Below, piece after piece: positions 30,790 through 34,721 of a DNA stretch of 47,178 bases (positions are counted from its first letter, which is position 1; the number at the start of each line of letters is the position of its first letter). The notes under the pieces were generated by a model, which saw nothing but the letters and a program-made list of their open reading frames with translations, was not told the DNA's origin and did not search any database. The translations under genes and the position numbers were made by a program. Origin of the DNA: an uncultured Nitrosomonadaceae bacterium (GTDB taxonomy: Bacteria > Pseudomonadota > Gammaproteobacteria > Burkholderiales > Nitrosomonadaceae); the NCBI GenBank assembly GCA_905612245.1, contig CAJQRL010000024.1, positions 1 to 47,178 on the forward strand. Direction: 5' to 3'.

Positions 30790-32112
30790 GTGAATATTTC
30801 GCGAAATTTTTATGCGTTATTAATTTCTTGGCTAATCTTTTCTCATGCTCCGTTAAATGCTGCTGATTTGGTTGATATTTACCGGGAAGCATTGGATCAG
30901 GATGCGCAGTATGCTGCTGCCCGTGCCGAGCATAAGGCAGCTCAGGAAAAGATACCTCAGGGTAGAGCAGGACTACTTCCTAATCTGACGCTTTCAGGTG
31001 TAAGGAAAAGGCAATTGATAAATCCAGGCGGTTCTCCAGAAGTAGCGCTTAATAGAGGCGGATTGGTTATTCAGGCTGTCCAGCCACTTTTTCGTATGCA
31101 AAATTTCATAGCCTATGAACAATCTAAAATTCAGGTTATGCAGGCAGATTCGCAATTTATTATAGCTTCCCAGAATCTGATCTTGCGTGTAGCACAGGCA
31201 TACTTTGATGTATTAATTGCTCAGTTCGACGTGAGGGTGGAGGAGGATCAGAAGAGAGCTATTGAACGACAGCTAAAACAGGCCAAAGCAAATTTTGAGG
31301 CGGGAAATTCTACTATGGTTGACACCAAAGAAGCTCAAGCTCGCTTTGATTTATCAGTTTCGAGATTAATCGTCGCTAGGAACGTGCTGGAAATTAGCAA
31401 ACGTAAATTACAGAAAATTACTGGACGGTACCCCAGCATCATTGCTCGTTTACATGAAAACCATGACACCAATTCATTTGTTTTAAAGTATGCCAATATG
31501 AATGATTGGCTTGCAGTAGCCGAACAGAATAGCCTTACGGTCCGAGTCCAGCAATTAGTTCTTGAAATGGCGGAGCATGAAGTGAAGAGAGCTAGGGCAG
31601 GGCACTACCCAACCCTCGATCTAGTTGCTCTCTACAGTAATCAGAAAGGTGTGGGTGGGACTTTTACCGGGAGGGGAATAGATCTAACTTCAAAGGAAAT
31701 TGGACTTCAACTAAATATCCCATTATTTAGTGGATTTGCAGTACAGTCAAGAGTGCGTGAAGCGATGGCCACTGAGGAAAAAGTACGTCATGATTTAAAA
31801 AATACATATCGTGATGCTGAGCTTAATGTTAGCCAGGAATTTCTTAATTTTACTAATGGTAGAGCCCTGGTAAAGGCGCAGATAGAGGCTGTGAGGTCTA
31901 GTCAAAGCCAACTTGAATCAACTAAACTTGGACAGGAAGTCGGGGTAAGGACTGAGGTAAATGTGTTGAATGCACAGGGGTTACATTCTCTTGCCAGACG
32001 AGATCTTAGCCGGGCATACTATAATTTGCTTATGTCAAGATTGAGGCTAGAGGCGGCGGCAGGCGAGCTGGATGAGGAGGATTTGGTGCAGATAAATAAA
32101 GTGCTGCAGTAG
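30790..32112 (+). CDS. tolC: TolC-family outer membrane channel protein
   Basis: A 440-residue outer membrane efflux/secretion protein with a signal peptide (cleavage expected after APLNA) and two OEP repeats (about residues 30-210 and 235-430) forming the beta-barrel strands and long coiled helices of TolC. Typical segments include QALDQDAQYAAARAEHKAAQ-like ALDQDAQYAAAR and the second-repeat GLQLNIPLFSGFAVQSRVREA. It would be the exit duct of type I secretion and tripartite efflux systems. Start is a GTG with only weak AAGG before it. No inner-membrane partner genes are adjacent. Confidence 0.9.
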   Translation: MNISRNFYALLISWLIFSHAPLNAADLVDIYREALDQDAQYAAARAEHKAAQEKIPQGRAGLLPNLTLSGVRKRQLINPGGSPEVALNRGGLVIQAVQPLFRMQNFIAYEQSKIQVMQADSQFIIASQNLILRVAQAYFDVLIAQFDVRVEEDQKRAIERQLKQAKANFEAGNSTMVDTKEAQARFDLSVSRLIVARNVLEISKRKLQKITGRYPSIIARLHENHDTNSFVLKYANMNDWLAVAEQNSLTVRVQQLVLEMAEHEVKRARAGHYPTLDLVALYSNQKGVGGTFTGRGIDLTSKEIGLQLNIPLFSGFAVQSRVREAMATEEKVRHDLKNTYRDAELNVSQEFLNFTNGRALVKAQIEAVRSSQSQLESTKLGQEVGVRTEVNVLNAQGLHSLARRDLSRAYYNLLMSRLRLEAAAGELDEEDLVQINKVLQ

Positions 32113-32212
32113 CAGGGTATTTTTGATTAGAAGAGTTTATTTTTATTTCTTAAATATGACTTTATTATGTAATGCATCGCGTGTTTTATAACTATTAAAA
32201 TAGGACATGTGG

Positions 32213-33937
32213 TTAATGGTAGAGCGGGTAAAGTTCAGCATAAAGTCCTTTTTCTGAAAGTAGCTCTTGGTGACCACCAGTTTCTACAATACGATTTTGT
32301 TCTATTACAATAATACGATCAACCTTCTCTAAAGTTGCTTTACGACGCGCAATAATTATGGTGGTGCGCTCTCGCATTAAGTTATCTAGTGCCGATCGTA
32401 AAAGATATTCCGACTCAGAATCCGGTACTGTAGTTATTTCATCCAGAATAAGAATAGATGGATTTTTGAGGATTGTTCGGGCAATAGCGATATGTTGACG
32501 CTGTTCTCTGGAAATTTTTATACCATGCCTACCTATGAGCGTTTGCATTCCTTGTGGCATTTTCCTAATAAATTGTATTGCATGTGCGGCATGTGCGGCT
32601 GAAATGATCTCACTTTCAGTTGAGTAACCCATTTCTCCATAAGCAATGTTAGAGGCGACCGAGTCATTAAACAGTGTTGCGTCCTGTGATAAAAATCCGA
32701 TTTTAGAACGTAAACTGTCTAATTTAATGGTGGTTAACTCTTGATTATTAAGTAAAATTTCTCCATCGGTAGGCTGTATGAATCGTGGTATTAAATTAAT
32801 TAGGGCATTTATAGTCTCATCTGAAGAACCAACCAAAGCAATTTTTTCTCCTGATCTGATGGCTAGTGAAAAATCTTTTAGAGCGCCATGATAATTAACA
32901 TGCTCAAATCGTAATTCACCTTGAGCATTACTTATGGTTATTTTCCCCTTATCTGACTGAGTTTCCAGATCTAGAACAGAGAAAATATCTTTTGCTACAG
33001 CAGCACAATTTCGTAGCGACTTATTTTCTTTGATGAGCTGCTTCAAGGATGCAGATAAAATTAATATTGAAACAATAAATGAAAAAGAACTGCCTACTGT
33101 TATCTCATCTGTAAGAGCCTGCCGAAAGGCTAGATAAAATATAGCGGATAGGGTGATGGCTACAACTATGTTTATTAAAGATTCTTTTAAAATAGTAGCA
33201 TTAGTATTCTTTATATTAAATTTTCGTATCTGGTCGGTTCCATCTTGGAAGCGCTGAAGTACATGCTTCTGGCCCCCGTTCAGCACTACTGTTTTGTAAT
33301 TTTCTGTTGATTCCTTTATTACTTGAATAAGATTTTCTGTTATTTGATATTTCTTTTCACTGGTGTCATGCGATCGGCCATAGATTATTTGTGCGCTTAG
33401 TAAAGTTATTGTGGTTAGCATTAAAGCTAATAATGATAGCTCTAAATTTAGATAGAGCATCCACATTGATAACCCTATAATAGTAAGTATATTCTTTATA
33501 AAGATGAATGCTGCTCTTGCTCCATCTTGAGTAATTTGGATTACATCAGAAGTAAGTTTTGAAACTAAATTTTCACTTGTTTGTCCTTCGTAGTATTGGC
33601 AGGGCAGTATTAGAAGCTTGTCAAATATTGCTGTTTGTAGATCTGATGTTAAGGTATTTCCTATCCAATTTATTCCATAATTGCTGATATATCTAGATAG
33701 ATTTTGTACCATAAAAAAAGCAATGATAATTAATGGAATAAACTGTACGGAGTCATAGTCTTTACTAACAAAAATGCCATCCAATATTGGTTTAATAAAT
33801 ACTGGGATAACTGTATAAGTTATCGCCATGAGAACTATACTTGATAGTGCCAGTGTAAATATTAACCGGTAGGGAGAAAGGTGGCCCATTAAGCGCAGGC
33901 ATAACTGATAATTAGTCATGGTTTGAGTATTCAGCAT
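32213..33937 (-). CDS. MsbA-like ABC exporter with degenerate ATPase site
   Basis: A 574-residue half transporter with an N-terminal six-helix ABC exporter domain (about residues 15-310) and a C-terminal nucleotide-binding domain, closest in look to MsbA, the lipid A flippase. The frame is intact but the ATPase motifs are not. The Walker A region reads GSSDETINA (370-378) where GSSGSGKST is expected, losing the Lys. The signature reads ISREQ (475-479) in place of LSGGQ, the D-loop TVPD in place of SALD, and the H-loop His is Arg531. Walker B (LILDE) and the Q-loop Gln remain. It is convergent with tolC. It may be a non-hydrolysing paralogue or a gene early in decay; a working MsbA should exist elsewhere. 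Confidence 0.85.
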   Translation of the reverse strand: MLNTQTMTNYQLCLRLMGHLSPYRLIFTLALSSIVLMAITYTVIPVFIKPILDGIFVSKDYDSVQFIPLIIIAFFMVQNLSRYISNYGINWIGNTLTSDLQTAIFDKLLILPCQYYEGQTSENLVSKLTSDVIQITQDGARAAFIFIKNILTIIGLSMWMLYLNLELSLLALMLTTITLLSAQIIYGRSHDTSEKKYQITENLIQVIKESTENYKTVVLNGGQKHVLQRFQDGTDQIRKFNIKNTNATILKESLINIVVAITLSAIFYLAFRQALTDEITVGSSFSFIVSILILSASLKQLIKENKSLRNCAAVAKDIFSVLDLETQSDKGKITISNAQGELRFEHVNYHGALKDFSLAIRSGEKIALVGSSDETINALINLIPRFIQPTDGEILLNNQELTTIKLDSLRSKIGFLSQDATLFNDSVASNIAYGEMGYSTESEIISAAHAAHAIQFIRKMPQGMQTLIGRHGIKISREQRQHIAIARTILKNPSILILDEITTVPDSESEYLLRSALDNLMRERTTIIIARRKATLEKVDRIIVIEQNRIVETGGHQELLSEKGLYAELYPLYH

Positions 33938-34148
33938 CAGCGCACAATATCAGAAATAAGGGAAATAGAGTAAATGATGCTTCAAGTTGCAGATGACAGC
34001 AAATTAAATGTTTCTGGCCGTATCATTCGTTTAGCTAAAGGATTAGGCAGTAGGAAGAGTCACTAGAGTGTTTAATACTAGCTAGGGGATCATAGGAGCG
34101 CAGGAAACTATGTGCCCGCAAAGCTGTAGTTGTTAAATCAATCGTGAA
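33938..34148. other. Intergenic region between the MsbA-like gene and the coiled-coil gene
   Basis: About 210 bases without a recognisable gene. A short plus-strand frame from 33973 (about 30 codons, MMLQVADDSKLN at the start) has no family I know and no ribosome binding site, so I do not call it. No RNA gene or terminator is evident. Confidence 0.5.
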
Positions 34149-34175
34149 ATGACATTTGGAGTACTCTGTTACCGG

Positions 34176-34205
34176 TTGACTTGGAAGGGATTATCAAATT
34201 ATAGT
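34176..34205 (+). promoter_or_regulatory. Strong sigma-70-type promoter, probably leaderless
   Basis: TTGACT at 34176-34181 and TATAGT at 34200-34205, 18 bases apart. Transcription would start about seven bases after the -10, which is the A of the ATG at 34212. No ribosome binding site precedes that ATG. Confidence 0.6.
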
Positions 34206-34211
34206 GCGTTG

Positions 34212-34721
34212 ATGAAAGAAGAGCTTAAATTGCTAGAAGAAAAGATTAATCAATTTGTACAATTGTGCCACCATCAGCGTACGGAAAATATGCAGCTGCG
34301 CGAAAAATTATCAGAAATTACCAGTGAAAATAATAATTTATCAGAAAAAATAAGTGGAGCAATTAGTCGTTTAGATACAGAGAATAATCAACTACGTCAG
34401 CAATTAACAGAAGCTACTAGTGAGAATAAGAATTTATCAGAAAAAATAAGTGGAGCAACTAGTCTTTTAGGTACGGAGAATACCCAACTGCGAGAGCAAT
34501 TAGCAGAAGCTACTAGTGAGAATAAGAATTTGTCAGAAAAAATAAGTGGAGCAACTAGTCTTTTAGGTACGGAGAATACCCAACTGCGAGAGCAATTAGC
34601 AGAAGCTACCAGTGAGAATAAGAATTTGTCAGAAAAAATAAGTGGAGCGACTAATCGTTTGGAAGTTCTCCTAACTCAATTCCCAAACTCTCCAATCATA
34701 AGTAATATAAGTAATGACTGA
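34212..34721 (+). CDS. Coiled-coil protein upstream of zapA, ZapB-like (TIGR02449 type), repeat-expanded
   Basis: A 169-residue, almost wholly coiled-coil protein. Its first 40 residues (MKEELKLLEEKINQFVQLC, then RTENMQLREKL) resemble the short ZapB-like protein, normally about 70 residues, that precedes zapA in betaproteobacteria. Between that and the C-terminal NRLEVLLTQF, which matches the usual end, lie about three and a half copies of a 32-residue unit (SENKNLSEKISGATSLLGTE, then NTQLREQLAEAT). The likely role is in Z-ring organisation with ZapA; this is inference from position and shape. The ATG at 34212 is chosen over one 63 bases upstream because a promoter lies between them. The stop overlaps the zapA start by eight bases. 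Confidence 0.75.
   Translation: MKEELKLLEEKINQFVQLCHHQRTENMQLREKLSEITSENNNLSEKISGAISRLDTENNQLRQQLTEATSENKNLSEKISGATSLLGTENTQLREQLAEATSENKNLSEKISGATSLLGTENTQLREQLAEATSENKNLSEKISGATNRLEVLLTQFPNSPIISNISND
34325..34658 (+). repeat. 96-bp in-frame tandem repeat
   Basis: Unit starts fall at 34325, 34421, 34517 and 34613, exactly 96 bases (32 codons) apart; the last unit is partial. Copies 2 and 3 differ at two of 96 positions, both silent (TTA/TTG and ACT/ACC). Copy 1 is clearly older and more diverged. Confidence 0.95.

Follow-up and report, generated by a model that had tools for sequence, protein, structure and literature searches.

The window analysed here is a stretch of 47,178 nucleotides from an uncultured Nitrosomonadaceae bacterium, contig C24 of an assembly that is 72% complete and divided into 69 contigs. 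Its reverse strand carries an msbA-like gene (Table 1), which opens with an ATG at position 33937 and closes with a stop codon ending at position 32213; the frame of 574 amino acids contains no internal stop, as the original prediction had claimed. The predicted protein has the domain order of a type IV ABC exporter, a transmembrane domain (TMD; PF00664, ABC_membrane, 116.7 bits against a cut-off of 28) and then a nucleotide-binding domain (NBD; PF00005, ABC_tran, 73.1 bits against a cut-off of 25). The top NCBIfam model is MsbA (TIGR02203), at 488.5 bits and under the curated cut-off of 602, and solved MsbA structures resemble the protein (for example 3b5w, E = 2.4e-99); eukaryotic ABCB transporters outscore MsbA in the same structure-sequence comparison because they have two halves each. 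An AlphaFold model built on a 10-row alignment (mean pLDDT 61.5, pTM 0.43) was left unused. The gene is AT-rich: the two 1-kb blocks that hold it (32001-34000) have GC contents of 0.376 and 0.340, the latter the lowest among the 47 1-kb blocks of the window. By eye there is no clear ribosome-binding site at 33938-33960, 5' of the ATG; the codons just 5' of the ATG are similar in members of the window's genus (g1) and of genus g2. Counts of predicted promoters and terminators were not above those of shuffled sequences.

Table 1. Features of the msbA-like locus, with positions in the window
Feature	Position	Strand	Basis or remark
tolC-like outer membrane efflux protein gene, convergent neighbour	30790..32112	+	PF02321
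msbA-derived pseudo-ATPase exporter gene	32213..33937	-	574 codons and stop; PF00664 and PF00005
Transmembrane domain, residues ~10-320	32978..33910	-	PF00664 at residues 29-298; dN/dS 0.318 versus L026
Dead Walker A GSSDETINA, residues 370-378	32804..32830	-	without Lys and without Ser/Thr Mg ligand
Q-loop Gln418, kept in the window	32684..32686	-	alignment
Helical subdomain, residues ~415-469	32531..32695	-	most conserved part across the family; contains E441 and Q465
Dead signature ISREQ, residues 475-479	32501..32515	-	motif reading
Walker B ILILDE, residues 495-500, kept	32438..32455	-	motif reading
D-loop altered to TVPD, residues 503-506	32420..32431	-	motif reading
H-loop position, Arg531 instead of His	32345..32347	-	motif reading

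The altered Walker A, signature, D-loop and H-loop and the retained Walker B and Q-loop glutamine are all as originally read, and in the alignment T375, I376 and N377 of the window protein stand opposite G381, K382 and S383 of E. coli MsbA. Orthologues were sought with a profile (A2) made from 23 members of the family Nitrosomonadaceae and run over 125 genomes of its four genera (g1 to g4), after which the best open frame was extracted. An open orthologue is present in 119 of the 125 genomes (g1, 6 of 8; g2, 8 of 9; g3, 23 of 23; g4, 82 of 85). The raw profile tally was 121, from which G067 and G087 were left out with scores only of the paralogue class, and the search gave no profile match in G002, G003, G032 and G104. 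A frame at a contig end of G032 (51% complete) may be part of the gene. G002 (95% complete) and G003 (87%), both of g1, have no match, yet they possess serine palmitoyltransferase (Spt), LptD and LptF/G, and therefore the gene seems not to be strictly needed. At the low end of the orthologue scores G079 (392 bits) and G071 (381 bits) overlap the best paralogue (384 bits); by BLAST, these two match other dead orthologues best (307 and 342 bits), with intact MsbA (179 bits) and paralogues (106-108 bits) scoring far lower. Three of the 119 (L027, L186 and L212, of 402, 510 and 450 amino acids) are short or reach contig ends, and many members of g2 and g4 have a shortened C-terminus or lack it. 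Eighteen rows of the profile search, most of them g4 rows with one or two, report stops within the match, which we take to be the natural end of the gene overrun by the profile because the extracted frames are open and nearly full-length. The nearest relatives, likewise Nitrosomonadaceae, are 80% (G005; L011/L026) and 59% (G001; L012/L028) identical to the window protein, and mean pairwise TMD identity across the family is 0.31.

Eight catalytic positions (in E. coli numbering K382, S/T383, Q424, S482, G484, D505, E506 and H537) were scored in these orthologues and in a comparison set of 15 MsbA, which consisted of E. coli MsbA and 14 from other families of the order; 10 of the 24 other-family genomes are absent from this comparison, among them G052, in which the best match is only 27% identical. 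All eight residues are present in 15 of 15 comparison MsbA and in none of the 119 family orthologues, three of which keep seven (L055, L056, L057) and two of which keep six. The GxxGxGK[ST] motif is likewise found in 15 of 15 versus 0 of 119; L160 alone retains G381-K382-S/T383, without the remaining Walker A residues. The SGGQ signature persists in two members (L055 and L057), the H-loop histidine in 10 and the Q-loop glutamine in 13, and the Walker A loop is deleted in six of the eight g2 members. The ATPase site is broken in differing ways across the family, and the persistence of other motifs beside a broken Walker A in L055 and L057 suggests that Walker A was lost first and that the other motifs eroded lineage by lineage. 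The same dismantled Walker A occurs in three more assemblies of the window's genus (G005, G001 and G004, the last being L027); G005 and G001 also share the signature, D-loop and H-loop losses, and the 402-codon frame of G004 stops at Walker A. Early decay of the gene, one of the readings first offered, is rejected, since loss of the motor is family-wide and the gene is under purifying selection.

The tree comprises 66 rows and places all of the 47 family orthologues sampled on one side of a 100/100 branch, with L221 (G079) on a long branch; four paralogues fall apart from them, beside E. coli MsbA as distant rows. This branch, together with a neighbour gene common to a family with intact MsbA (see below), argues that the family gene and the msbA of related families share an ancestor. 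Neither the window's 72%-complete assembly nor the matches listed in the family searches include an intact MsbA orthologue. Two further exporters encoded in the window genome do have intact motifs: L002 (29% identical), which groups with the paralogues, and L003 (23% identical), which is not among the rows of the tree. By tally, six of the 125 genomes pass the TIGR02203 cut-off, and all five among the matches listed are dead-site orthologues of g3, so that the cut-off is no test of the motor. Below the orthologues in score, the matches listed include intact paralogues with frames of about 757-819 amino acids; frames of this length also occur in other families that possess MsbA. The proposal that the protein is the partner or inhibitor of a true MsbA was not borne out, and inhibition of a true MsbA is rejected because no intact orthologue was found in that assembly or among the matches listed.

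Selection was assessed by pairwise codon fits to 32 hand-picked close pairs, in place of IQ-TREE codon runs whose tables gave no dN/dS, and dN/dS = 1 was considered rejected at LRT > 3.84. Median dN/dS over the 32 pairs is 0.32 for the TMD and 0.27 for the NBD, and dN/dS = 1 is rejected in 32 of 32 pairs for the TMD and in 30 of 32 for the NBD (the exceptions being L054-L167, with an LRT of 0.9, and L152-L157, with 3.7), that is, in 62 of 64 domain tests. For the window versus L026, dN/dS is 0.213 in the NBD and 0.318 in the TMD; the IQ-TREE log for the single group that contains the window gave 0.16 and 0.25, respectively. Purifying selection in both domains agrees with the original prediction of a pseudo-ATPase under selection and not a simple pseudogene, and the protein is very probably a functional pseudo-ATPase of some kind. 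Intact MsbA proteins of one other family (motifs intact in 19 of 19) have dN/dS of 0.05-0.11 in the NBD (10 pairs) and 0.03-0.19 in the TMD (9 pairs, one saturated fit having been dropped). Constraint on the msbA-like gene is relaxed three- to fourfold compared to intact MsbA, but it is real. Among window genes compared with L011, dN/dS is 0.05 for thiC, 0.09 for uppP, 0.10 for pcm, 0.15 for tolC, 0.23 for the TSUP gene and 0.27 for the msbA-like gene; the highest of the ten genes compared (0.52) belongs to a ZapB-like coiled-coil gene at 34149-34721, which contains four tandem 96-base repeats.

The constraint is unevenly distributed within the dead domain. Relative to intact MsbA, the blocks around Walker A, the signature, Walker B/D-loop and the H-loop have an information content of 0.43-0.53 and the C-terminus one of 0.33, versus 0.91 in the helical subdomain (E. 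coli residues 421-475) and 0.90 at residues 491-503. Family members share on average a pairwise identity of 0.31 in the TMD, 0.55 in the helical subdomain and 0.41 in the rest of the NBD, versus 0.51, 0.60 and 0.66 in the 14 intact outgroups. Positions at least as conserved as in the 14 intact MsbA number 21 of 55 in the helical subdomain, the bounds of which were picked after inspection of the alignment, versus 52 of 503 elsewhere (Fisher p = 4.8e-7); residues 491-503 show no conservation excess by the same test (p = 0.68). Two residues that vary in intact MsbA are fixed or nearly so in the family, Glu at E. coli position 447 (118 of 118 members that have a residue at this position, against 6 of 15 intact MsbA) and Gln at position 471 (116 of 117 against 4 of 15). 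In the same 32 pairs the helical subdomain has an amino-acid change of 0.080, compared with 0.153 for the TMD and 0.136 for the remainder of the NBD, and change at fourfold sites is alike (0.198, 0.190 and 0.215, respectively); catalytic-motif positions (110 of 778) change no more slowly than the remaining NBD positions (665 of 5661). By these substitution patterns, the catalytic residues are now free to change, and the part that normally contacts the membrane domain is not. A DNA-level element within the conserved segment was considered and rejected, with fourfold differences at 162 of 818 sites there versus 1162 of 5872 elsewhere.

Synteny was counted in 84 stretches of at least 7.5 kb (5 of g1, 3 of g2, 10 of g3 and 66 of g4). 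A tolC gene beside the msbA-like gene is confined to g1, where 4 of 5 stretches have it, against 0 of 79 long stretches of the other three genera; the argument that a position opposite tolC suggests envelope lipid work is weak. A polysaccharide epimerase gene lies near the msbA-like gene in 1 of 5 (g1), 3 of 3 (g2), 7 of 10 (g3) and 43 of 66 (g4) stretches, 54 of 84 overall and 53 of 79 outside g1, with PF02719 in the two tested. A GT4 transferase gene is present in 1 (g1), 2 (g2), 7 (g3) and 41 (g4) of the epimerase-bearing stretches. The epimerase gene (Polysacc_synt_2) also adjoins the intact msbA of outgroup G051 (L103).

The context missing from the earlier interpretation is an apparent loss of lipid A. 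Lipid genes were contrasted between 37 family genomes and 24 genomes that each represent a different one of 24 other families of the order. LpxC is absent from all 125 family genomes by a first model and from all 37 by a second, and present in 24 of 24 other-family genomes; LpxB is over its cut-off in none of the 37 (with one weak match, in G028) and in 24 of 24. LpxK was observed in 82 of 85 g4 genomes, from which LpxC is absent, versus 0 of 40 other family genomes. Conversely, Spt is over its cut-off in 35 of 37 family genomes (the exceptions, G007 and G023, are 79% and 89% complete) and in 0 of 24 other-family genomes, weaker relatives of the enzyme matching everywhere. In nine of nine stretches examined, Spt belongs to a four-gene operon encoding an AMP-binding enzyme, an epimerase, a carrier protein and Spt (Pfam names taken from one of the nine). 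This ceramide operon itself contains no transporter gene; in its flanks, which are annotated in part, an EamA-type transporter gene adjoins the operon in three of nine stretches. LptD is present in 37 of 37 family genomes and LptF/G in 35 of 37 (exceptions G000 and G023). Individual genomes such as G005, G015 and G019 combine the absence of LpxC and LpxB with Spt, LptD and LptF/G, and in three genomes of the window's genus (L251, L252, L253) Spt lies about 7-9 kb from the lptD match. From gene content, the family appears to have lost lipid A. A 2010 survey already noted that Nitrosomonas europaea lacks nearly all Kdo2-lipid A genes, having found lpxK alone in that species and lpxA alone in N. 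multiformis (PMC3087551); the present pattern agrees with that survey and with the sphingolipid genes reported for N. eutropha (PMC11324152).

The gene is a real, family-wide, MsbA-derived pseudo-ATPase retained after the apparent loss of lipid A. Its novelty lies in the retention of a dead flippase; the searches of open-access literature showed no account of an MsbA with a dead site in Nitrosomonadaceae. The best explanation, which we favour only tentatively, is that an msbA orthologue was retained after lipid A loss as an ATP-independent lipid translocator. A role specifically as a lipid translocator is a shade more tentative again; the dead site and the retention of the gene are shown, and both the substrate and the energy source are inferred. 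A broader scenario, in which LPS was exchanged for a ceramide-based lipid family-wide and the flippase became a motorless translocator feeding the retained Lpt bridge, is somewhat unlikely. By the proposed mechanism, lipid A would have been replaced by a ceramide-derived outer-membrane lipid, and the protein would have stopped using ATP and survived as an ATP-independent translocator whose homodimeric membrane domain lets the new lipid cross the inner membrane. The driving force could be the proton gradient or removal of the lipid via the Lpt bridge, which presumably depends on lipid at the inner membrane's outer face. The pseudo-NBD would hold the dimer together through its conserved helical subdomain, set against the coupling helices. 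A precedent comes from E. coli: once stripped of its NBD, MsbA moves ethidium with the pH gradient, whereas MsbA with Lys382 deleted is trapped by ATP (PMC4979069); complete loss of ATP binding would presumably avoid such trapping.

Lipid phosphates are touched by a ring of basic and acidic residues that lines the MsbA cavity (PMC8660845). Position 148 is Lys or Arg in 37 of 37 members of g1-g3 and Gln in 38 of 82 of g4; position 78 is Arg in 31 of 31 members of g2-g3; position 149 is acidic in 111 of 119 orthologues; and position 41 is acidic in 15 of 15 intact MsbA, 2 of 6 (g1), 8 of 8 (g2), 0 of 23 (g3) and 0 of 82 (g4). The window protein has Y41, Q78 and N149. As aligned, the basic part of the ring is largely kept in g2 and g3, and less in g1 and g4; what is kept of the ring speaks for a translocator. 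Several observations count against the translocator reading: the elevated dN/dS, the variation of ring residues and the two g1 genomes without a match. It is also odd for a pure translocator that conservation is lower in the TMD than in the helical part of the dead NBD. Also against it, an E. coli msbA mutant is rescued neither by NBD-less nor by Lys382-deleted MsbA, and flopping of PE there needed ATP besides protons (PMC8660845).

The closest known system is MsbA itself (TIGR02203; E. coli b0914), with which the family protein shares descent, domain order, length, similarity to solved structures and one neighbour gene also present in a family with intact MsbA; it differs in having no working ATPase site, in falling short of the curated cut-off, and in belonging to a host family without LpxC and LpxB. 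The laboratory construct MsbA-MD, an NBD-less E. coli MsbA (PMC4979069), similarly has a membrane domain that must work without ATP, but the protein described here is natural, family-wide and full-length, with an NBD that is constrained but dead. Caulobacter without lipid A (Zik et al. 2022, as described in the commentary PMC10964400) likewise shows that sphingolipid supports life without lipid A; there, however, the lack of lipid A is a conditional laboratory state, whereas here it is apparently a fixed family trait, judged from genes only.

Somewhat less probable than the lipid translocator is an envelope scaffold or regulator that has lost transport and whose pseudo-NBD, above all the helical subdomain, binds another protein. 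The best-conserved region of the protein is this subdomain, in which E447 and Q471 have become characteristic of the family. Against a scaffold, purifying selection acts on the TMD too, in every pair, part of the basic cavity ring persists in g1-g3, and no partner gene is adjacent family-wide, the commonest neighbour being the epimerase that also stands beside one intact msbA. An improbable alternative is a slowly eroding relic of LPS export after lipid A loss, as might be suspected from the three- to fourfold elevation of dN/dS, the degraded C-termini in g2 and g4 and the two g1 genomes that lack a match; LpxK is kept in LpxC-less g4 genomes, and therefore relics may linger. Against a relic stand frames that stay open in 119 of the 125 genomes, across four genera and at so low a TMD identity, the near-universal rejection of dN/dS = 1, positions that are fixed in the family but variable in intact MsbA, and constraint that is unequal at the protein level while synonymous change is equal.

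A heterodimeric ABC exporter of which this protein is the degenerate half, the partner supplying a working ATP site, is very improbable. Degenerate NBD motifs in a type IV exporter are also found in TM287/288, BmrCD and TAP, heterodimers in which one of the two sites is degenerate and the other stays canonical. Among type I/IV exporters, heterodimers of this kind form an established class (PMC7756269), and the window genome has L002 and L003 with intact motifs. Of the 119 stretches, whose flanks span 1.5-6 kb or less where a contig ends, just one holds a second exporter frame: in G103 an exporter with an intact Walker A (L181, G103:C210) lies about 3 kb from the dead gene. In contrast to the known heterodimers, a homodimer here would have two dead composite sites and there is no regularly adjacent partner; Walker A and signature are both lost in one protein, and therefore both composite sites of a heterodimer would be damaged as well, and L002 groups with the paralogues. 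That the Walker A codons were missequenced or misassembled, conceivable in so fragmentary an assembly, is rejected as virtually impossible because the same change is seen in three other assemblies of the genus (G005, G001 and G004) and the site is dead in various ways across the family.

A conserved MsbA with a dead motor at the step of crossing the inner membrane makes the supply of outer-membrane lipid testable in ammonia oxidisers, and offers a natural experiment on whether the membrane domain of an ABC exporter can move lipid without ATP. If the lipid translocator reading is true, the Nitrosomonadaceae would contain an ABC transporter that has turned, in nature, into a secondary or passive lipid carrier.
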